Shown: positions 1,671 to 53,344 of the stretch, piece by piece | Layout of the letters: each line of letters starts with the position of its first letter | How positions within the stretch are numbered: the stretch's first letter is position 1 | DNA from: Hyphomicrobiales bacterium | GTDB lineage: Bacteria > Pseudomonadota > Alphaproteobacteria > Rhizobiales > RI-29 | NCBI GenBank assembly: GCA_016125495.1 | Contig: WGLQ01000014.1 | Span: 62,001 to 126,000 of the forward strand | Direction: 5' to 3' | Length of the DNA: 64,000 nt | The notes under the pieces: model-generated | Databases searched by the model: none | What the model saw: only the letters and a program-made list of their open reading frames with translations | Told to the model about the DNA's origin: nothing | Position numbers and translations under genes: made by a program

Positions 1671-2708
1671 TCAGCTGACGCGGATGCGCGGGTTGAGGAA
1701 CGCATAACCGATGTCGGAGATCAGTTGCGTTACGAGGACGAGAGCGACCGCGACGAGCCCGCACGAGAGCAGGAGATCGATGTCGTTGTTGGCGGCCGCT
1801 TGCACGAGCATGTATCCAAAGCCCTTGTAATTGAACATGGTCTCGACGACCACGACGCCCGTCAGGAGCCATGGGAACTGGAGCATGATGACGGTGAACG
1901 GGGCGATCAGCGCGTTGCGAAGGGCATGCTTCAGGACGACCGACGAAAAGCTGAGACCCTTGAGGCGGGCGGTGCGGATGTACTGGGCCGTCATCACCTC
2001 GGCCATCGAGGCCCGCGTCATGCGCGCGATGTAGCCGATGCCATAGATCGCCATGGTCATCACCGGCAGGGTGAAGTTGTGGAACGTCACGCCCTTGGTG
2101 AGCGCCGTCGCCGCCGAGCCGTTGAGCCAACCGAGGTAGGAGGCGAACACGGCGGTAAAGATCACGCCGGAGACATATTCAGGCGTCGCGGTTGAACCGA
2201 TCGAGAGAAAGGAGAGCGAGCGGTCGAGGCGCGAGCCCTCGCGCATGCCGGCGAGGACCCCGATGACGAGCGACACCGGCACCATCACCACCATCACCCA
2301 GAACATGAGGATGCCGGTTGCCTTGAGTGCCTCGGGCATACGGCTGTTGACGGTGGTGCGAAAGGCCGTCGAGCAGCCGAAGTCGCCTTGGAGAATGCCC
2401 GAATAGGTCGGCTCGCCGGGTTCGTTGCAATAGCGAAAACGGGGAACGGCCTGGCCGCTCGCCGGATCGATCGCCGGCTGCTTCTGGACGATGCCGATCC
2501 AGCGACCGTAGCGTACGAAGAAGTTGTCGCGGTAGCCGTTCCGCTCCAGCCAGGAATCCTTCTCGGCCTCGGACGCGCGCATTTCCGTCTGGAACGTCGC
2601 GAGCTTTTTCAGGTTCGGCTCGAGATTGACGAAGAAAAAGACCACCATGCTGAGCAAGAGCATGGTGAGGGCCATCACCCCTGCTCTGCGCAGTAGGAAC
2701 ATCAGCAT
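1671..2708 (-). CDS. Peptide ABC transporter inner-membrane permease (DppB type)
   Basis: This is the first permease subunit, 345 residues. It opens with the membrane helix MLMFLLRRAGVMALTM and has a large periplasmic loop of about 130 residues before the core. The EAA loop reads VLKHALRNALIAPF. The ATG at 2708 follows GGGAGGAAG, and another in-frame ATG lies two codons later. It is 345 bases downstream of the binding-protein gene, with a hairpin in between, and 13 bases upstream of DppC. The periplasmic loop contains two cysteines (CNEPGEP and GCSTAF). Confidence 0.93.
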   Translation of the reverse strand: MLMFLLRRAGVMALTMLLLSMVVFFFVNLEPNLKKLATFQTEMRASEAEKDSWLERNGYRDNFFVRYGRWIGIVQKQPAIDPASGQAVPRFRYCNEPGEPTYSGILQGDFGCSTAFRTTVNSRMPEALKATGILMFWVMVVMVPVSLVIGVLAGMREGSRLDRSLSFLSIGSTATPEYVSGVIFTAVFASYLGWLNGSAATALTKGVTFHNFTLPVMTMAIYGIGYIARMTRASMAEVMTAQYIRTARLKGLSFSSVVLKHALRNALIAPFTVIMLQFPWLLTGVVVVETMFNYKGFGYMLVQAAANNDIDLLLSCGLVAVALVLVTQLISDIGYAFLNPRIRVS

Positions 2709-9405: not shown

Positions 9406-10488
9406 ATGGGGCTTCTCGGGCGCTACATCGCTGGCAAGTTCATTGTCGCCATCACCGGGGCCTTCGTCGTCTGTCTGGTGTTGATCTACCTCGTCGACTT
9501 CATCGAAATCCTGCGCCAGTCCGGCAAGTATGGCGGCGCGGGCCTCGGGCTGATGGCCTACATCACCTTGTTGCGCATGCCCGCCTACGGCGAGCTGACG
9601 CTCCCGTTCGCGACGCTGGTCGGCACCATCGGCGCCTTCCTCATGATGAACCGCTCATCGGAGCTGGTCGTGGTGCGGGCCGCGGGCATCTCGGTCTGGC
9701 AGTTCGCGCTCCCGGGCATCATCGTTGCCGGCGCCATCGGGGTTGCAACCGTCGGGCTCTACAATCCACTCGCCGCGGTGGCGCGGGCCCACGCCGAGGA
9801 ACTGCGCGCCGAGGCCTTCGGGCGTGAGCAGTCACTCCTGCGCACGAAGGCCGGAGCCTGGCTCCGCCAGGACAGCATCGACGGCCAGACCGTCCTCAGC
9901 GCCAAGACCACGGCCCGCAACGGTCTGCTGCTCGGCGCCGTCACCGTGCTCCAGTACGATCGTGAGCATCACTTCGTCGAACGGGTCGATGCCGCGACCG
10001 CCGAACTGCGCGACGGCTTCTGGGAACTCGAGAAGGCCTGGGTGTCGAGCCCCGGCGAGGAAGCGGCCTTCTTTGCGACCTACCAGATCGCCACGTACCT
10101 CACGCCGGAGCAGGTCACGAACGCCATCGGATCGATCGTTTCGGTGTCCGTCTACGACTTGCCACGGCGGATCGAGTTGGCGCGCCGGGCCGGGCTGCCG
10201 ACCATCAAGTACGAACTGCAGATGAGCCAGCTGCTGGCCCGCCCGGCGATGCTCGCGGCCATGGTTCTTTTGGGGGCGACTGTGTCCTTGCGGGCATTCC
10301 GGTTCGGCGGCATCCAAACTATGGTCGTCGTGGGGATCGTGACGGGGTTCGGGTTTTTCATACTTGCAGAGATGTCTCGGCAGGTCGGTTTGTCCGGCCT
10401 CGTGCCTCCCCAACTGGCGACTTGGGTGCCCATCGTGGTGGCGACATCACTCGCGGCCACCGCTTTGCTACACCAGGAGGACGGCTAG
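9406..10488 (+). CDS. lptG: LPS export ABC transporter permease LptG
   Basis: This is the partner permease, 360 residues. It starts MGLLGRYIAGKF and has the family pattern of an N-terminal helix block, a periplasmic beta domain in the middle (about 110-270) and C-terminal helices. The ATG at 9406 follows GGGGGAGCC, which overlaps the end of lptF. The stop TAG shares its last base with the GTG start of lptD, so the three genes are translationally coupled. Confidence 0.93.
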   Translation: MGLLGRYIAGKFIVAITGAFVVCLVLIYLVDFIEILRQSGKYGGAGLGLMAYITLLRMPAYGELTLPFATLVGTIGAFLMMNRSSELVVVRAAGISVWQFALPGIIVAGAIGVATVGLYNPLAAVARAHAEELRAEAFGREQSLLRTKAGAWLRQDSIDGQTVLSAKTTARNGLLLGAVTVLQYDREHHFVERVDAATAELRDGFWELEKAWVSSPGEEAAFFATYQIATYLTPEQVTNAIGSIVSVSVYDLPRRIELARRAGLPTIKYELQMSQLLARPAMLAAMVLLGATVSLRAFRFGGIQTMVVVGIVTGFGFFILAEMSRQVGLSGLVPPQLATWVPIVVATSLAATALLHQEDG

Positions 10489-12908
10489 TGCCGTTGCATG
10501 ATCGGGCAGCGCTTCGGCGGGATCGGACGGGTTCGCCCCGGACCGCGTCCGCCATGCGTTCCTCGACCGCCGGGCACTCGGTGCCCCAGCGGCTCCTGGC
10601 GTTCGCCCGCCTCCTCGTCTGGCTCGCCGCCGGCCTTCTTCTCGCGCCCGCGATTCCCCAAATTTCGACCGCGAATCCGGCACTTGCGCAGACGAGCCTG
10701 TTGCCATCTGGGCCCGAGCTCGATCCCAAGAACCCGATGCTGCTGCAGGCGGACGAGCTGATCTACGACAACCAGAGCGAGCGCGTGGTCGCCCGCGGCA
10801 ATGTCGAAATCTACTTCAACAACTACACCCTGCTCGCCGACCAGGTGGCTTACAACCAGGGCGCCAACACGCTCGAAGCAGTCGGAAACGTCCGCATCAA
10901 GGAGCCCAACGGAGCGATCGTCAACGCCGACCGGATCACGCTGACGGACGACTTCCGCGATGGGTTCATCGGCTCGCTGCGAATCGTGACGAAGGAGGAC
11001 GCCCGCATCGCCGCGGCCCTGGCGACACGCCAGGACGGTGAGACGACGATCTTCGAGCGCGGTGTGTTCACGCCGTGCAAGCCGTGCAAGGACGATCCGG
11101 AGCGGGCGCCACTTTGGCGCCTCAAGGCGGCGAAGATCATTCACAAGCAGGCCGAGGGGAACATCTACTACGAGGATGCGGCCCTCGAGTTCTTCGGGGT
11201 GCCGGTGGTCTGGCTGCCCTACTTCTATCACGCCGATCCGTCCGTGAAGCGGCGCTCGGGCTTCCTCATCCCGAAGGTCGGCAGCTCGAGCGAACTCGGC
11301 TTCTATACCGAGGTCCCCTACTTCTGGGAGCTTGCTCCCAATATGGATGTCACTCTCTCGCCCCGCTACATGACCAACCAGGGCACGCTCTGGAAGGGCG
11401 AATTCCGGCACCGGCTCTCGAACGGCGCCTACAGTGTCAATGTCGCCGGCATCTATCAGGACGACGGAACGTTGACCTCCTCGGGTGATCTCAAACTCGC
11501 GGAGAACGATTGGCGCGGCAGCCTGCACACAGAAGGGCGATTCAGCCTCGGTTCCTACTGGAACGCCGGCTGGGACCTGATGCTCGAGAGCGACGACACG
11601 TTCCGACGTTTCTTCAAGCTGGACAACGTGTTGCGGACCGACCGCATCTCCAAGGCCTACATCGAGGGGATGAACGACCGCAACTACTTCGGCGCCCACC
11701 TCTATCATTTCGGCGGCCTCCTCGCGGACGACAACTCGAACAGCGAATCACGCGTGCATCCGCTCGTCGATTACAATTACGTGTTCGCCGATCCCGTGCT
11801 CGGCGGCGAGCTGAGCTTCGATGGCAACATCACCAGCCTCTCGCGCGAGGGTGACACCGACTCCAGCCGCGTGCTCGCGCAGGTCAAATGGCGGCGCCAG
11901 CTGATCGATGAGATCGGGCAGGTCTTCACACCGTTCGCGCAGCTGCGGGGCGACATCTACAAAGTCTCGAGCTACGACGACGTCTCCACGATCGACCCCA
12001 ACGAGAACGATCTCGTGGCGCGCGGCTTCGGCATCGCAGGCCTCGAATACAGCTATCCGTTCGTCGCCCATACCGAGCGTGCGTCGCACATCGTCGAACC
12101 GGTCGCCCAGATCATCGCCCGTCCGAACGACATCGACCAGCAGGGTGTGCCCAACGAGGATGCCCGAAGCTTCGTCTTCGACGACACGCTGCTCTTCGAT
12201 ACCGATAAATTCTCGGGTTATGACCGCATCGAAACCGGCGTTCGCGCCAACGTCGGCGTGCGCTACACCATGCAAATGGAGGGGCGCGGCTACGCCAGGG
12301 CCGTGTTCGGTCAGAGCTATCACCTTTCCGGTGACAATCCGTTCGACCCGCGCAGTGGCCTCGAGACAGACACGTCCGATTACATTGCGGGCCTCTATAT
12401 CGAGCCGGCCGCCAACTTCCGCCTGCTCGCTCAGGCGAGGTTCGACGAGAGCGACTTCGATCTGCGGCGCCAGGACATCGGTGCCTACATGAACTACGGT
12501 CCGGCCGCGCTCACTCTGAATTATGCGCTGTCGCGCGGGACCCCGATCGAACAGATCAGCGCCGAGGAATTGGCGACCCTGACGGCTGGGCAGATTCGGG
12601 CCATCACCGAGGATCAGCAGGAGCTGATCGCCAACGGCACGCTCAGGGTGGCTGAATTCTGGAGTGTCCTCGGAGGGTTGCGCTACGACATCGAGGAAGA
12701 GCTGGCGCTCACCACGAGCGCCGGTCTCAAGTACTCGGACGAGTGCTTCACCCTGGCCGTCACCTACTCCGAGCGCAACTACCGCGACCGCGACATCGAG
12801 CCCGATCAGACGGTCAGCATCCGCTTCGAGCTGAAGCACCTCGGCGGGACCACCTTCAACACCAGCATCGCCCAGGACCTCATCGCGAGCGAAGGCGGCG
12901 ACGACTGA
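10488..12908 (+). CDS. lptD: LPS-assembly outer-membrane protein LptD
   Basis: This is the outer-membrane LPS translocon, 806 residues. The start is GTG at 10488: AGGAGG lies 7 bases upstream inside the end of lptG, and TAGTG overlaps the two genes by one base. A signal peptide follows (LLVWLAAGLLLAPAI... to ALAQ). Next is an OstA/LptA-like beta-jellyroll (LLQADELIYDNQSERVVA, about residues 85-200), then the long beta-barrel rich in alternating aromatic strands. Cysteines occur at CKPCKDD and in the barrel (SDECFTLAV), compatible with LptD disulphides. The usual downstream partners surA, pdxA and ksgA are not here. Confidence 0.95.
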   Translation: MPLHDRAALRRDRTGSPRTASAMRSSTAGHSVPQRLLAFARLLVWLAAGLLLAPAIPQISTANPALAQTSLLPSGPELDPKNPMLLQADELIYDNQSERVVARGNVEIYFNNYTLLADQVAYNQGANTLEAVGNVRIKEPNGAIVNADRITLTDDFRDGFIGSLRIVTKEDARIAAALATRQDGETTIFERGVFTPCKPCKDDPERAPLWRLKAAKIIHKQAEGNIYYEDAALEFFGVPVVWLPYFYHADPSVKRRSGFLIPKVGSSSELGFYTEVPYFWELAPNMDVTLSPRYMTNQGTLWKGEFRHRLSNGAYSVNVAGIYQDDGTLTSSGDLKLAENDWRGSLHTEGRFSLGSYWNAGWDLMLESDDTFRRFFKLDNVLRTDRISKAYIEGMNDRNYFGAHLYHFGGLLADDNSNSESRVHPLVDYNYVFADPVLGGELSFDGNITSLSREGDTDSSRVLAQVKWRRQLIDEIGQVFTPFAQLRGDIYKVSSYDDVSTIDPNENDLVARGFGIAGLEYSYPFVAHTERASHIVEPVAQIIARPNDIDQQGVPNEDARSFVFDDTLLFDTDKFSGYDRIETGVRANVGVRYTMQMEGRGYARAVFGQSYHLSGDNPFDPRSGLETDTSDYIAGLYIEPAANFRLLAQARFDESDFDLRRQDIGAYMNYGPAALTLNYALSRGTPIEQISAEELATLTAGQIRAITEDQQELIANGTLRVAEFWSVLGGLRYDIEEELALTTSAGLKYSDECFTLAVTYSERNYRDRDIEPDQTVSIRFELKHLGGTTFNTSIAQDLIASEGGDD

Positions 12909-13443: not shown

Positions 13444-14325
13444 TCAAGCCGGCGTGCGCGCGGCGGCCTTGACCACGGCATCGATCGCCATCAGCTCGCG
13501 CAACAACCCCTCGAGCGCCGCGAGCGGGACCATGTTCGGCCCATCGGAGGGCGCGCGATCAGGGTCCTGGTGGGTCTCGATGAAGAGCCCCGCAACGCCA
13601 ACGGCCACCGCCGCCCGCGCCAGGACCGGAACGAACCGCCGGTCGCCACCCGAGGACGTCCCCTGCCCGCCGGGCTGTTGCACGGAGTGGGTGGCATCGA
13701 AGATCACCGGGCAGCCGGTTTCAGCCATGATCGGCAGAGCCCGCATGTCCGCTACGAGCGTATTGTAGCCAAAGCTCACCCCTCGCTCCGTCAGCAGCAC
13801 GTTGCCATTCCCGCTCCCCGTCACCTTGGCTACGGCGTTGCGCATGTCCCATGGGGCGAGAAACTGACCCTTCTTGATCTTCACGACCTTGCCGGTCTCG
13901 GCCGCCGCGATCAGCAGGTCGGTTTGACGGCAGAGGAAGGCCGGAATCTGCAGAACGTCCACCACCTCGGCGACCGGCGCGCACTGCGCGCGCTCGTGCA
14001 CGTCCGTGACGACGGCGAGCCCGAGGCTCTCGCGGATCTCGGCAAAGACCGGCAGCGCCGCGGCGAGCCCCATACCCCGCTTTCCGGTGAGGCTGGTGCG
14101 GTTCGCCTTGTCGAACGACGACTTGTAGACGAGACCGATCCCGAGGCGGGCGGCAATCTCCTTGAGAGCCGTTGCCATCTCGAGGGCGTGCGCGCGGCTC
14201 TCCATCTGGCAGGGACCGGCGAAAACCGCGATCGGGGCATGATTGGCCACGACGACCGCCTCGCTCCCACTGCGCACCGGCCCGATCGTCACCACGGGGT
14301 TTGCACTCGTCTCGCTCGTGCTCAT
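13444..14325 (-). CDS. kdsA: 3-deoxy-8-phosphooctulonate synthase (Kdo-8-phosphate synthase)
   Basis: This enzyme condenses phosphoenolpyruvate with arabinose-5-phosphate to make Kdo-8-P, the first step to the LPS inner-core sugar Kdo. It has 293 residues. Family motifs are visible: AGPCQMES, YKSSFDKANRTS, VTDVHE, IKKGQF, DATHSVQQPGG and FIETHQDP. The ATG at 14325 follows GAGGGAGCG. In many alphaproteobacteria kdsA sits near eno and pyrG; here it sits next to the Lpt genes instead, so LPS synthesis and export genes are neighbours. Confidence 0.96.
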   Translation of the reverse strand: MSTSETSANPVVTIGPVRSGSEAVVVANHAPIAVFAGPCQMESRAHALEMATALKEIAARLGIGLVYKSSFDKANRTSLTGKRGMGLAAALPVFAEIRESLGLAVVTDVHERAQCAPVAEVVDVLQIPAFLCRQTDLLIAAAETGKVVKIKKGQFLAPWDMRNAVAKVTGSGNGNVLLTERGVSFGYNTLVADMRALPIMAETGCPVIFDATHSVQQPGGQGTSSGGDRRFVPVLARAAVAVGVAGLFIETHQDPDRAPSDGPNMVPLAALEGLLRELMAIDAVVKAAARTPA

Positions 14326-14550
14326 CGGTTCGCTCCCTCGACGGTTGCCCGCACGGCCCTGGTCGGGCGCCACACCGGACTCCCGCCTAGCACGACGCCA
14401 CGCCGCTCGCGAGGCAATGCTCGGCGCGCGACGCACAAATCGGTCTGGCTTCTCCACTCGGCTGGCAAGTGCGGCAGAGCCGTACGCCCAATTCGACCGA
14501 AACTGAAACTCGAACCGAAGCCCAGACTCAAACCGAACCGGAGAGAACCC

Positions 14551-14865
14551 ATGATCCGCAAGACCCTCCCCCTCGTTGCCGCTGCCGCTTTCGCCGCCAT
14601 CGCCTCGTTCGGCTCGGCCGGCTCGGCCGAAGCGTCCTACCTCACCTGTCACAACGGCTTCTGGAAGTCCGGCGTGACCTCGCACGGCATCCGCTGCTCG
14701 AAGACCATCTCCGGCTTCCATTCCAAGTGGGAGGCCGTCCAGAAGGCCAAGTGGGTGGCGAGCACGGCGAGCTGCAGCGGCTATGCCCGCACCCCCTCGA
14801 TCTACTACTCCTGCGACCGCTGGGGTAAGTGGACGGCCCGCATCTCCTTCCGCTGCGGCTGGTAA
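14551..14865 (+). CDS. Small secreted cysteine-containing protein of unknown function
   Basis: This 104-residue protein has a Sec signal peptide (MIRKTLPLVAAAAFAAIAS, cleavage likely after AEA). The mature part of about 75 residues is rich in Trp, Tyr, Ser and Lys and has five cysteines (TCHNG, RCSK, SCSG, SCDR, RCGW). I recognise no family. GAGAG lies upstream of the ATG, and a strong terminator follows, so it is a single-gene transcript. The leader before it is unusually poor in G on the plus strand. An odd number of cysteines suggests either a free thiol or dimerisation. Confidence 0.75.
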   Translation: MIRKTLPLVAAAAFAAIASFGSAGSAEASYLTCHNGFWKSGVTSHGIRCSKTISGFHSKWEAVQKAKWVASTASCSGYARTPSIYYSCDRWGKWTARISFRCGW

Positions 14866-14945: not shown

Positions 14946-14968
14946 CCGTTCTCGGCGCCTCGGTATCG

Positions 14969-15396
<428 letters not shown>

Positions 15397-15400
15397 TTTG

Positions 15401-15429
15401 CAGATCGCCCGCCAGCCGCCATCCGTCAA
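15401..15429 (-). promoter_or_regulatory. Candidate sigma-70 promoter of rnpB
   Basis: On the minus strand TTGACG (15429-15424) is followed after 17 bases by GATCTG (15406-15401), and RNase P RNA begins about 6 bases later. The -35 is close to consensus; the -10 is poor. Its position relative to the mapped P1 helix is the main support. Confidence 0.5.
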
Positions 15430-15662
15430 GCCGCGGGTATGCCCTATTGATGCCGCATGCCGCGTGAAATACTCGTTTCGAGTTCGCCAATCGGGGCTCT
15501 TTACCGAGGCGTCAGGTCGCATTGCGTCCGTCGCAGCAGGGCATGCTAGTCTCGTGGCATTGAACAGCCGGCAGAACTCCGGTTCCGGGGCGCGCTCCGG
15601 AAAGCCCGGGTTCGCACGAGGCGCACCGCGCGCTCTCGAAATCACGGAAGGCATGATCCGAA

Positions 15663-17045
15663 ATGATGAGCATTCGCGCATGGTTCCTCGCGCTGGCCAG
15701 TCTCGTGGCAGTTCCCGGCCTCGCGCTGGCGGTTCCGGCCCAGCTCTCGGAGTTGCCCGAGAGCGGCCTCTCGCGTGAAGGCGCCGTCGAGCGCGTCGCC
15801 TATCGGCCGGAGCGGGTTCGCCGCATCCTCCAGGATGACGGCTACAGCGACGTCGAGTTCATCGACGATACGCTCCCCGTCTACATCGCAACGGCCTGCC
15901 GCGACGGCAACCGCTACCGACTCCGCCTCAACCGCTTCGGACGGGTTCAGCGGCGCGACGTCGTCGGGCGCTGCGGCCCTGCGCCGGCACCCGAGCCGAC
16001 CATGACGATCGCCCAGGTCGAGCGCCGCCTCGAGCGGCTCGGCTACGACCGCGTCGAATTCCTCGATCGCACCCCGCCCCTTTTCGTCGCCGAAGCCTGC
16101 CAGCGTGGCGATCTCTACCGTGTGCGCATCGACGATCGCGGCGACATCGAGTTCCGCGAGCGCCTCGGGCGCTGCCGCCAGGGCTCGAGCATCGTTGGCA
16201 ACGACCGCGGCCTGAGGCCAAGTCAGGTGCGCCAGCTCCTCGTCGATGCCGGCTTCAACCGCATCCAGTTCATCGACCGCCAGTTGCCGACCTACATCGT
16301 GGAGGCCTGCCGCAACGACCGTCGCATCCGCATGACGCTCGACGGTGAGGGCCGGATCGAGGGCCGGGACGTCGTCGGCTCCTGCACCCGCGCGGGCGAG
16401 ACGACCGATGAGGGCTACAGTGTCGCGCAGATCACCGACATCCTCGAGCGCCGGCGCTATTACGACATCCGCTTCACGGACCGCCGCCTTCCGGAATACA
16501 AGGTCGAGGCGTGCCGCAACGCCCGCAAGTTCGACCTCGCCATCAACCGCTTCGGTGAGATCCGCAGCCGCACCCCGATCGGCAACTGTCGTCCGCTGAG
16601 CGACCAGGAACTGACCCGCCTGCCGACCCAGACCTTCAGCATCGAGAGCCTGCGCAATGTGCAGTCGATCGATGCCGACGAGTGCCAGGACTATCTCGAG
16701 TATTTGCTCCGCGACCGCACGATCAACTTCGCGACCAACAGCGCCGACATCCAGCGGGCGAGCTACGGGCTGCTCGACGAACTCGCCTTCGTGCTCGGCC
16801 GCTGCCCGGGCTCGCGCGTCGAGATCGCTGGACACACGGACTCGGTCGGTAGCAACTCCGACAACCAGGTGCTGAGCGAGCGACGCTCACAGTCCGTCGT
16901 CAGTTACCTCATTGAAAAAGGTGTGCGCCGCAACCGCCTCTCGGCTGTCGGCTATGGCGAAAGCTATCCGATCGCGAGCAACGACACGAACGCCGGCCGC
17001 GCCCGCAACCGCCGCATCGAGTTCATCGGGAGCTGGAGCGAGTAG
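15663..17045 (+). CDS. OmpA-domain protein with four N-terminal two-cysteine repeats
   Basis: This exported protein of 460 residues should tether to peptidoglycan. A Sec signal (AWFLALASLVAVPGLALA) is followed by four tandem units at about 48-104, 115-171, 184-241 and 253-309. Each has the pattern RxLxxxGYxxVxFIDxxLPxYIxxACR...GRIxxRxxVGxC. The two cysteines of each unit are exactly 25 residues apart (79/104, 146/171, 216/241, 284/309). The C-terminal OmpA domain (about 345-455) has FATNSADIQ, AGHTDSVGSN and NQVLSERRSQSVV. Two adjacent ATGs are possible starts. It is probably monocistronic, with a terminator at 17076. The repeat unit is not one I can name. Confidence 0.92.
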   Translation: MMSIRAWFLALASLVAVPGLALAVPAQLSELPESGLSREGAVERVAYRPERVRRILQDDGYSDVEFIDDTLPVYIATACRDGNRYRLRLNRFGRVQRRDVVGRCGPAPAPEPTMTIAQVERRLERLGYDRVEFLDRTPPLFVAEACQRGDLYRVRIDDRGDIEFRERLGRCRQGSSIVGNDRGLRPSQVRQLLVDAGFNRIQFIDRQLPTYIVEACRNDRRIRMTLDGEGRIEGRDVVGSCTRAGETTDEGYSVAQITDILERRRYYDIRFTDRRLPEYKVEACRNARKFDLAINRFGEIRSRTPIGNCRPLSDQELTRLPTQTFSIESLRNVQSIDADECQDYLEYLLRDRTINFATNSADIQRASYGLLDELAFVLGRCPGSRVEIAGHTDSVGSNSDNQVLSERRSQSVVSYLIEKGVRRNRLSAVGYGESYPIASNDTNAGRARNRRIEFIGSWSE

Positions 17046-19335: not shown

Positions 19336-20112
19336 TCAGGTGATCGCATCCATTGCTTCGCGCAATTGCGCAAGGCGCGCGAGAGTGGCGAGTGTCGACT
19401 GGTCGGCGCGGCCATCGACCCGCATCGGCCGCCAGTGGCGCTGGAAGGCGCGCACCACGTGCTCGGTCATGGCGCAGAATTCGCCACTCGCCGGCACGCC
19501 GTAGCCGAAGTCCCCGAAGGCCCGCTGCAGCGCCGTGACCGCGACGCCCGTATCACCCGGCCCGATGCCACGATCGGTTGCATCGACCGCCATCGGCGGC
19601 ACCCAGAGCCCGACGCCGACCCGGTAGAGGCGTGCCCAGTCGAACCATTCGCCGGGATCGGCCTTGCGGTTTGGCGCGACGTCCGAATGGGCGAGAACCC
19701 GCTTCGCCGGGATGCCCCGACGAGCGCAGATGTCGAGGGCAAGCCGCGTCACCGCTTCCATCTGCGCTTCCGGGTACGGCGGGCGGCCAGCCTCGTGACC
19801 CGGGTTGTGGATTTCGATGCCGATGGAACAGTCGTTGAGGCTTTCGCGGCCGGCCCAGTGGGAGATCCCGGCGTGCCAGGCCTTGTGGCGCTCGGCGACC
19901 ATTTGCGTAACCGTGCCGTCCTCGTCGACCAGGTAGTGGCAGGAGACCTTGGATTCCGGTGTGGTCAGCCAATAGAGCGCCCGGTCGTGATCGGCCATGC
20001 CGGTGTAATGGAGAATGAGCATGTCCGGGTGGCTGCCATCCGGCCTTGCCTCGTGGTTCGGCGAGGCGCGCCAATTGTCGACGAGGCCGGTATCGATCAT
20101 CGAAAGGGACAT
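19336..20112 (-). CDS. N-acetylmuramoyl-L-alanine amidase (AmpD/AmiD type) with peptidoglycan-binding domain
   Basis: This is an Amidase_2 enzyme of 258 residues that cleaves the lactyl-amide bond of muropeptides. The zinc-binding histidines are in LILHYTGM and the conserved loop LAHSDVAPNRKADPG; GIEIHNPGH is also typical. Residues about 180-250 form a PG_binding_1 domain (VTALQRAFGDFGYGV, LATLARLAQ). No signal peptide is visible, so it is likely a cytosolic, AmpD-like recycler. The start at 20112 (MSLSM) follows GAGAGA; a second ATG lies four codons later. It is the first gene before the DUF6916-like gene on the minus strand. Confidence 0.92.
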   Translation of the reverse strand: MSLSMIDTGLVDNWRASPNHEARPDGSHPDMLILHYTGMADHDRALYWLTTPESKVSCHYLVDEDGTVTQMVAERHKAWHAGISHWAGRESLNDCSIGIEIHNPGHEAGRPPYPEAQMEAVTRLALDICARRGIPAKRVLAHSDVAPNRKADPGEWFDWARLYRVGVGLWVPPMAVDATDRGIGPGDTGVAVTALQRAFGDFGYGVPASGEFCAMTEHVVRAFQRHWRPMRVDGRADQSTLATLARLAQLREAMDAIT

Positions 20113-20243
20113 ATTGGGTCTCTCGTCAGGGAACTGGCGGGCCAGCGGCCGCTCGATGACCAATAGGGGGCAGGCAGACTGTCCGGCAAGCCCCATGCAC
20201 GCGGCCGCTCGGGCGGCGCGCGCGGCCGGCCGGCGGTGCGGCC

Positions 20244-52408: not shown

Positions 52409-53344
52409 ATGCCTTCAAACGAAAAGAGTACGCAGCCATCGGGTGACTCCTTTGCGCGCGTCCTTATTCCCGTGGCAGCAATGCTCGCGGTCACCGGCGG
52501 CCTCGTCGCCCTGACACCGCTCGGCAAGTCCGGAGGACAGACGGCCAACACCGCGACGCTCGCGACTGGCGCGACGACCTCCGCCCCGGCCGCGACCGCC
52601 GAGGCCGGCGCTGGCGCCGCGAGCGATGGCACGGACCAGCCGTTGCGTCTTGCGACCATCAACGATGCCCAAAAGAGCGACATCGAGGCGGTCGTGCGCC
52701 GCTACCTGCTCGACAACCCCGAAATCCTGCTCGAGATGCAGAACGCGTTCGAATCGAAGATGGAGGCGCGGCGCGAGGAGCAGATGCGGGTGGTCCTGGC
52801 CACGCAGAGCGAAACGCTCTTTCGCAGCACCACGGCGCCGACCCTCGGGGCCGTGAAGGGCGACGTGACCGTCGTCGAATTCTTCGATTACAACTGCGGC
52901 TTCTGCAAGCGCGCGCTCGATGGCATCGGCAAGCTGATCGAATCGGACAAGAACGTGCGCGTCGTCTTCAAGGAGTTCCCGATCTTCGGCGAGGACAGTG
53001 AGGCGGCGGCCCGCGCCGCCCTCGCCGCCGCCAAGCAGGACAAGTATTGGGAAATGCACGCCGCGCTCTACAACAAGCCCGGTCGCGCCAATGCCGCCAA
53101 GGCCCTGCAGATCGCCAGCGAGATCGGCCTCGATATGGCGCGCTACAATGCCGACTTGACTTCGGCGGATGTGACCTCCGAGATCCAACGCGTCCAACAG
53201 CTCGCCGAGGCCATGGGAATCCGCGGCACTCCGCACTTTTTCGTCGGCGACAAGGTCATCCCAGGAGCGCCCGAGGACCTTTTCGAACAGCTGACCGAGC
53301 GTGTTGCAGAGGTGCGTCAATCCGGCGGCTGCAAGGTCTGCTGA
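52409..53344 (+). CDS. DsbA-family thiol oxidoreductase, membrane-anchored
   Basis: This 311-residue protein has one N-terminal helix (VLIPVAAMLAVTGGLVAL), an Ala/Thr-rich linker and a helical lead (about 88-145). The thioredoxin-fold domain has active site YNCGFCKRALD and cis-Pro loop IRGTPHFFVGD. The inserted helical part is typical of DsbA. An extra CKVC sits at the very C-terminus. It may form or isomerise disulphides in envelope proteins; the many Cys-pair proteins encoded here would be natural clients. AAAGGGA precedes the ATG at 52409. Confidence 0.93.
   Translation: MPSNEKSTQPSGDSFARVLIPVAAMLAVTGGLVALTPLGKSGGQTANTATLATGATTSAPAATAEAGAGAASDGTDQPLRLATINDAQKSDIEAVVRRYLLDNPEILLEMQNAFESKMEARREEQMRVVLATQSETLFRSTTAPTLGAVKGDVTVVEFFDYNCGFCKRALDGIGKLIESDKNVRVVFKEFPIFGEDSEAAARAALAAAKQDKYWEMHAALYNKPGRANAAKALQIASEIGLDMARYNADLTSADVTSEIQRVQQLAEAMGIRGTPHFFVGDKVIPGAPEDLFEQLTERVAEVRQSGGCKVC

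Follow-up and report, generated by a model that had tools for sequence, protein, structure and literature searches.

The window analysed here, a stretch of 64,000 nucleotides from the genome of a Hyphomicrobiales bacterium (4.05 Mb in 36 contigs), contains a gene for a protein in which four similar units, each with two cysteines, precede an OmpA-like domain. The locus raises the questions of what this unit is, whether its cysteines are bonded to each other, and what an array of such units would do in the cell envelope. Export of the protein and its location in the periplasm are probable, as the N-terminus resembles a signal peptide by eye. The features of the gene and its surroundings are given in Table 1.

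Table 1. Features of the array gene and of neighbouring parts of the window (window coordinates)
Feature	Position	Strand	Details	Basis
Array gene: N-terminal export signal, four Cys-paired PepSY-like units, OmpA domain	15663..17045	+	460 aa
Probable Sec signal peptide	15663..15731	+	~aa 1-23, without lipobox Cys	by eye
Unit 1	15798..15983	+	aa 46-107, Cys79/Cys104	sequence, unit alignment
Unit 2	15993..16187	+	aa 111-175, Cys146/Cys171	sequence, unit alignment
Unit 3	16200..16397	+	aa 180-245, Cys216/Cys241 (model of aa 181-245)	alignment, model
Unit 4	16404..16601	+	aa 248-313, Cys284/Cys309	sequence, unit alignment
Further Cys pair	16683..16805	+	Cys341 (before OmpA domain)/Cys381 (inside OmpA domain)
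OmpA-like peptidoglycan-binding domain	16728..17012	+	aa 356-450	Pfam, structure matches
RNase P RNA (rnpB)	14969-15393	-	upstream, divergent	Rfam
LptD	10422-12908
DAHP_synth_1 gene	13444-14721
DsbA-like gene	52409-53344

The protein contains ten cysteines, at positions 79, 104, 146, 171, 216, 241, 284, 309, 341 and 381. The first eight form four pairs with a spacing of exactly 25 residues, confirming what the initial annotation had read from the sequence, although its list of cysteines, correct for these eight, lacked Cys341 and Cys381. When eight cysteines were placed at random, one common spacing for four pairs arose in 5 of 20,000 trials. The four units align over 66 columns with 35-47% identity to unit 1, and ten columns, both cysteines included, are invariant. 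At the DNA level the longest repeat family measures 60 nt, and its copies are 67% and 73% like the reference, a divergence that marks the repeat as old and recognizable at the protein level. Recent duplication of the window's units in the DNA was rejected on account of these diverged copies and of a unit tree that is partly ordered by position.

The repeat escapes the usual domain collections. Pfam searches of the protein with E-values up to 10 return only OmpA, with neither PepSY nor BON, and the best 25 of 43 NCBIfam matches all run via the OmpA part. A profile made from the units, the route that the initial annotation had proposed, links the repeat to PepSY_2 (PF13670) via relatives without the cysteines. 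This profile, which has one Cys-less row, reaches Cys-less proteins outside the order with a best E-value of 3.7e-8. Eight Cys-less proteins were scanned: six of these (L080, L081, L082, L083, L084 and L089) pass the curated PepSY_2 cut-off, and L085 and L061 fall below it. L027 matches PepSY in Pfam at an E-value of 0.13 only.

Comparisons between profiles lead to the same family. A profile of 35 Cys-paired units (A5) matches one of 13 Cys-less segments (A6) at E 7.8e-16, and A6 matches an independently collected PF13670 set of 10 rows (A8) at E 2.3e-15. The rows of A6 were picked by the unit profile and include L027, L085 and L096, which are not shown to be PepSY_2, so that A8 provides the fair test of PepSY homology. 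Compared directly, A5 and A8 reach a score of 23.0 (E 4.4e-4) with a probability of just 33.5, and the seed profile A3 matches A8 with a probability of 77.0 (E 2.1e-5). In control comparisons with A5, the highest score among 100 column-shuffled versions of A8 was 12.6 and that of reversed A8 was 9.6, compared to the 23.0 of the true order. The alignment of A5 with A8 spans the whole domain in order.

By these comparisons, the repeat unit is a distant, Cys-paired relative of PepSY, to which it is both similar and homologous. It shares with PepSY_2 and PepSY (PF13670 and PF03413) a predicted helix followed by strands, probable secretion, possible occurrence in tandem, profile homology and a skeleton of the type GY..I........Y.A.A....R..L.IN..G.I. 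Unlike the PepSY_2 members examined, the window units carry one cysteine at the end of strand 2 and another after strand 4, ending in GxC. As the curated Pfam cut-off for PF13670 is missed, the unit is called PepSY-like here and not a PF13670 member. The initial annotation had left the repeat without a name and had considered that it might prove to be a known named domain; in the Pfam searches and among the NCBIfam matches listed no family covers it, but it does turn out to be a divergent relative of one.

The predicted structure is compatible with this assignment. Unit 3, modelled together with 34 sister units, reaches a pLDDT of 92.7 and consists of a helix (residues 6-15) and four strands (19-25, 30-37, 40-47 and 52-60). 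Foldseek alone returned nothing significant for the unit model (best E 0.30). With VIA-align, the top row is YpmB (2gu3; Z 6.8, rmsd 2.2 Å, 58 aligned residues), followed by 4exr (Z 6.5, 2.5 Å, 58 aligned), which we take to be a PepSY protein. Lower rows include YpeB (5boi; Z 5.6, 5.1 Å, 62 aligned), the DUF2874 structure 4k61 (Z 5.3-5.6) and UipA (7ath; Z 5.3, 3.4 Å, 57 aligned), reportedly a metal- or lanthanide-binding PepSY protein. Mixed in at Z 5.1-5.3 are others, among them a glutaminyl cyclase, designed sheets and DsbC, the last of which is perhaps distantly related (PMC2954215). The advised threshold of VIA-align is Z 8, and the values of 5.3-6.8 for 2gu3, 4exr, 5boi and 7ath may reflect merely a common arrangement, so that the fold is taken as support and not as proof. 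YpmB and the C-terminal region of YpeB, both from Bacillus species, resemble the unit in fold by VIA-align; no OmpA domain is named for either, and YpmB is described as having two such modules (PMC2954215).

The middling Z-scores would also be expected if an unrelated domain had converged on this common helix-plus-meander fold, which would make PepSY a false lead. The lack of a direct Pfam match, the low probability of the direct profile comparison and the choice of the A6 rows by their match to the unit profile, some of them not being established PepSY_2 proteins, point the same way. However, the independent PF13670 set scores far above all 100 shuffles and its own reversal, over an alignment that covers the domain in order from end to end, and convergence is considered very unlikely.

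Relatives of the array were sought on several scales. The repeat region finds matches in 19 of 101 genomes, the host's own and 100 relatives, at E 1e-3. A 55-unit profile matches 149 of 397 genomes of the order at E 0.01, 23 of 289 genomes in a sample of the class, and, at E 1e-3, 9 of 299 genomes in a sample of the phylum; all three counts include Cys-less PepSY-like proteins, and the class and phylum samples contain some genomes of the same order. As only the top candidates of a permissive first pass receive a score in these genome searches, some relatives may have been missed, and the seed profile A3, consisting of Cys-paired units except for one row (L027), is biased toward finding paired units. 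The second cysteine corresponds to position 58 of the unit profile. The match extends to this position in at least 34 of the 397 genomes of the order, in 31 of which the letters at the second cysteine were inspected (G167, G250 and G324 being left out). Among the matches listed for the class and phylum samples, this position is unreached outside the order. Within the genomes searched, the Cys-paired unit was seen in one order only, probably the Hyphomicrobiales.

The relatives comprise 36 distinct open frames, which together hold 144 distinct paired units; the cysteine spacing is 25 in 137 of these units, 26 in another six and 24 in the remaining one. Nine of the frames are fused to OmpA and hold three to six units each, and 14 hold six units without OmpA. 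The remaining frames comprise one with three units, three with two and nine with a single unit (116-184 codons). Some frames end at contig ends (L041 and L019), making the unit numbers there lower bounds; the Pfam scans left out L016 and L030. The view, already put forward in the initial annotation, that the units are probably modules complete in themselves gains from the lone unit of the nine single-unit frames and from the high pLDDT of the unit modelled in isolation. Neither PepSY-OmpA fusions nor Cys-paired PepSY repeats appear in the titles and abstract starts searched, though they may still be in print.

For 20 of the 36 frames a tree was built from 86 units; 43 of its 83 inner branches are left open, and it groups units partly by their place in the array. 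Window units 1, 2 and 4 each join the unit of the same number in L010 (bootstrap/SH-aLRT 98/79, 91/96 and 96/73, none starred), and the fork that holds unit 3 is not resolved. Seven of the proteins in the tree have six units and lack OmpA; the final units of six of them form a group (98/85), that of L017 being placed elsewhere. Based on this ordering by position, the arrays look old, with several positions keeping their identity. The first two units of L041 (3-104 and 156-329), the first of which runs into the contig end, group closely with each other and look like a recent local duplication.

The two cysteines of a unit occur together or not at all, which supports their pairing in the initial annotation. 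Both are present in 144 of 179 distinct profile-matched stretches, and none of the 24 stretches whose first site holds a residue other than cysteine has a cysteine 24-26 residues later, it being noted that L063 is cut by the locus end and some others stop before the second site. The other 11 stretches were left unscored, since the local alignment does not extend over one or both cysteine columns (6 gap/gap, 4 Cys/gap and 1 gap/Cys). Among the Cys/gap rows, L037_m_1896 resembles a single unit interrupted by an insertion, and L092, L095 and L098 appear to be chance matches. Furthermore, the glycine two residues before the second cysteine is 97% conserved. In the register of the unit model, strands 2 and 3 are connected by a turn at 38-39, with residue 58 opposite 41 and residue 61 opposite 38. 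Cys61 of the model thus adjoins the turn after Cys36, a register compatible with contact between the two; together with the conserved glycine, this makes the predicted bond plausible. Judging from sequence and model, a disulphide within each unit is very likely; it may join the end of strand 2 to the segment just after strand 4, and it would tentatively be seen as a structural staple and not as a redox switch.

Conservation alone cannot separate bonding partners in a protein of many units, and the pairs might instead link adjacent units or chains, bind metal or take part in redox exchange. This is very improbable, as in nine of the 36 distinct frames a lone unit carries one pair, which therefore needs no second unit in the chain. 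In addition, the spacing is almost fixed, there is no CxxC motif, and related PepSY groups bear other pairs elsewhere in the fold, as would be expected of staples within each unit.

In the loci L061 (9-548, minus strand) and L066 (1517-2050, plus strand), both of which also carry single-unit Cys-paired genes, PepSY-like proteins have another pair, placed before the helix and at the turn between strands 3 and 4; L060, L062 and L063 have similar but weaker neighbours. A third arrangement, before the helix and near strand 2, is found in nine of ten alphaproteobacterial PepSY_2 rows, and L125, the one row without the first cysteine of that pair, also lacks the second. The PepSY-type fold thus bears cysteine pairs at different places in different branches.

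The C-terminal domain is a genuine OmpA domain, as had been annotated. Its Pfam match (5.3e-23) scores 81.7 bits against a PF00691 cut-off of 27.2, and in the full-length model the OmpA part finds matches among OmpA and Pal structures. Alignment with PA0833 shows that the TD and LSxRR..SV stretches, which in such domains hold peptidoglycan, are kept, and with TD and LSxRR the diaminopimelate-binding Asp and Arg. From its sequence, the domain should hold the protein to peptidoglycan. Cys341 and Cys381 are invariant in seven aligned OmpA-fused rows (317 and 357 in the numbering used there), and a similar pair is bonded in OmpATb. The initial annotation regarded disulphide-locked modules joined to OmpA as an unusual design, a description that does not fit well with the presence in the host genome of a BON-OmpA protein (L002, 1486-3366, minus strand, in an open frame of 1409 codons). 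This paralogue likewise has small modules before OmpA and a like cysteine pair around the OmpA start, but its modules are not PepSY-like: a single BON match lies above the Pfam cut-off, and by eye there seem to be more copies of it. Nor is the proposal of a periplasmic rod supported, as the full-length model (pLDDT 72.8, pTM 0.48) has low-confidence linkers and allows nothing firm to be said about a rod.

The gene neighbourhood does not point to a function. The genes downstream of the array gene encode a phage-collar-domain protein, two DUF6916 proteins, an acetyltransferase and an amidase with PG_binding_1 (19339-20196). Both rnpB and an Amidase_2/PG_binding_1 gene recur in L040, and there, too, rnpB is divergent and followed by the OmpA array gene. 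The other seven of the eight distinct OmpA-fused loci compared have no neighbour in common with the window at the thresholds used (nine loci are listed, but L104 and L041 are one contig, and several are of limited length or truncated at one side). Across seven six-unit loci, no gene other than the array gene is common to more than three. An operon that would explain the function was rejected, as L040 alone among the eight shares the window's neighbours. The DsbA of the initial annotation does exist in the window as a DsbA-like gene, but it lies about 35 kb away from the array gene. The DAHP_synth_1 gene is presumably kdsA. The window also contains a Cis52_sRNA match in Rfam (1915-2097, plus strand; 89 bits against a gathering score of 56) and, just before rnpB, an open reading frame for a Cys-rich, secreted-looking protein of 104 residues (14551-14865, plus strand) without a Pfam match at E 0.001. 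The open reading frame at 14968-15450 (plus strand), opposite the RNase P RNA, is spurious.

What the array does can be approached through its family. PepSY domains and proteins related to them are described as likely to inhibit or regulate by binding a partner (PMC2954215, PMC5491611), and DbfQ of Vibrio cholerae as a regulator of an adjacent two-component/sensor system (PMC12714742). DbfQ is also a small periplasmic PepSY protein, but it is a single domain without OmpA, and a term search of that paper finds neither 'disulfide' nor 'cysteine' (PMC12714742). The DUF2874/BVU2987 proteins (PF11396) and the BLIP-like superfamily, represented by the structure-search rows 4k61 and 4hbr, are also periplasmic tandem repeats with a related fold and are proposed inhibitors; they are described as occurring mostly in gut and oral bacteria and with no other domains attached (PMC2954215). 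By analogy, the protein is probably a peptidoglycan-anchored periplasmic array of disulphide-closed, PepSY-type partner-binding modules. After secretion, four tandem PepSY-like modules, each a helix packed on a four-stranded meander, would be anchored to peptidoglycan by the OmpA domain that follows them. The modules might then dock onto envelope partners, such as hydrolases, peptidases or sensor kinases, and restrain or stabilise them, a more weakly founded step, as partner binding by the modules is a guess from the family.

An array of stapled modules in tandem, found in nine OmpA-fused frames that hold between three and six units (some of the frames being truncated where a contig ends), would also suit a rigid, protease-proof spacer that reaches from peptidoglycan to another part of the envelope and binds no partner. 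This is possible but doubtful: no second attachment domain was matched by Pfam at the other end, 14 of the 36 distinct frames are six-unit arrays without OmpA, and the geometry between units lacks a confident prediction (pTM 0.48). The position-specific identity of several units, modestly supported in the tree, speaks against a spacer as well.

PepSY proteins are able to bind metals, and LanPepSY binds lanthanides (PMC12482762). The presence of UipA among the structural matches adds to the case for a metal- or lanthanide-binding protein like these two. Such a role is nevertheless improbable here, given that the family units are basic, with a mean net charge of +8.2 and 136 of 144 positive (the window's own units being at approximately +1 to +4, from slices shifted by two residues). 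Furthermore, a conserved acidic site was not seen in the units, the commonest acidic residues being D in 54% at column 22 and E in 43% at column 31. The basic units and the lack of a conserved acidic site together speak against metals and leave docking of envelope partners as the favoured reading.

A bolder version of partner docking, which we regard as unlikely, would see the arrays as a lineage-specific toolkit in which each position docks a different envelope enzyme or sensor, with the OmpA-fused form acting as a wall-bound multivalent regulator and the six-unit, OmpA-less form as its free counterpart.

Taken together, the analysis gives a name to a repeat that Pfam misses and points to unstudied periplasmic arrays in one order of Alphaproteobacteria, of which the natural single-unit versions should be easy to express and test.
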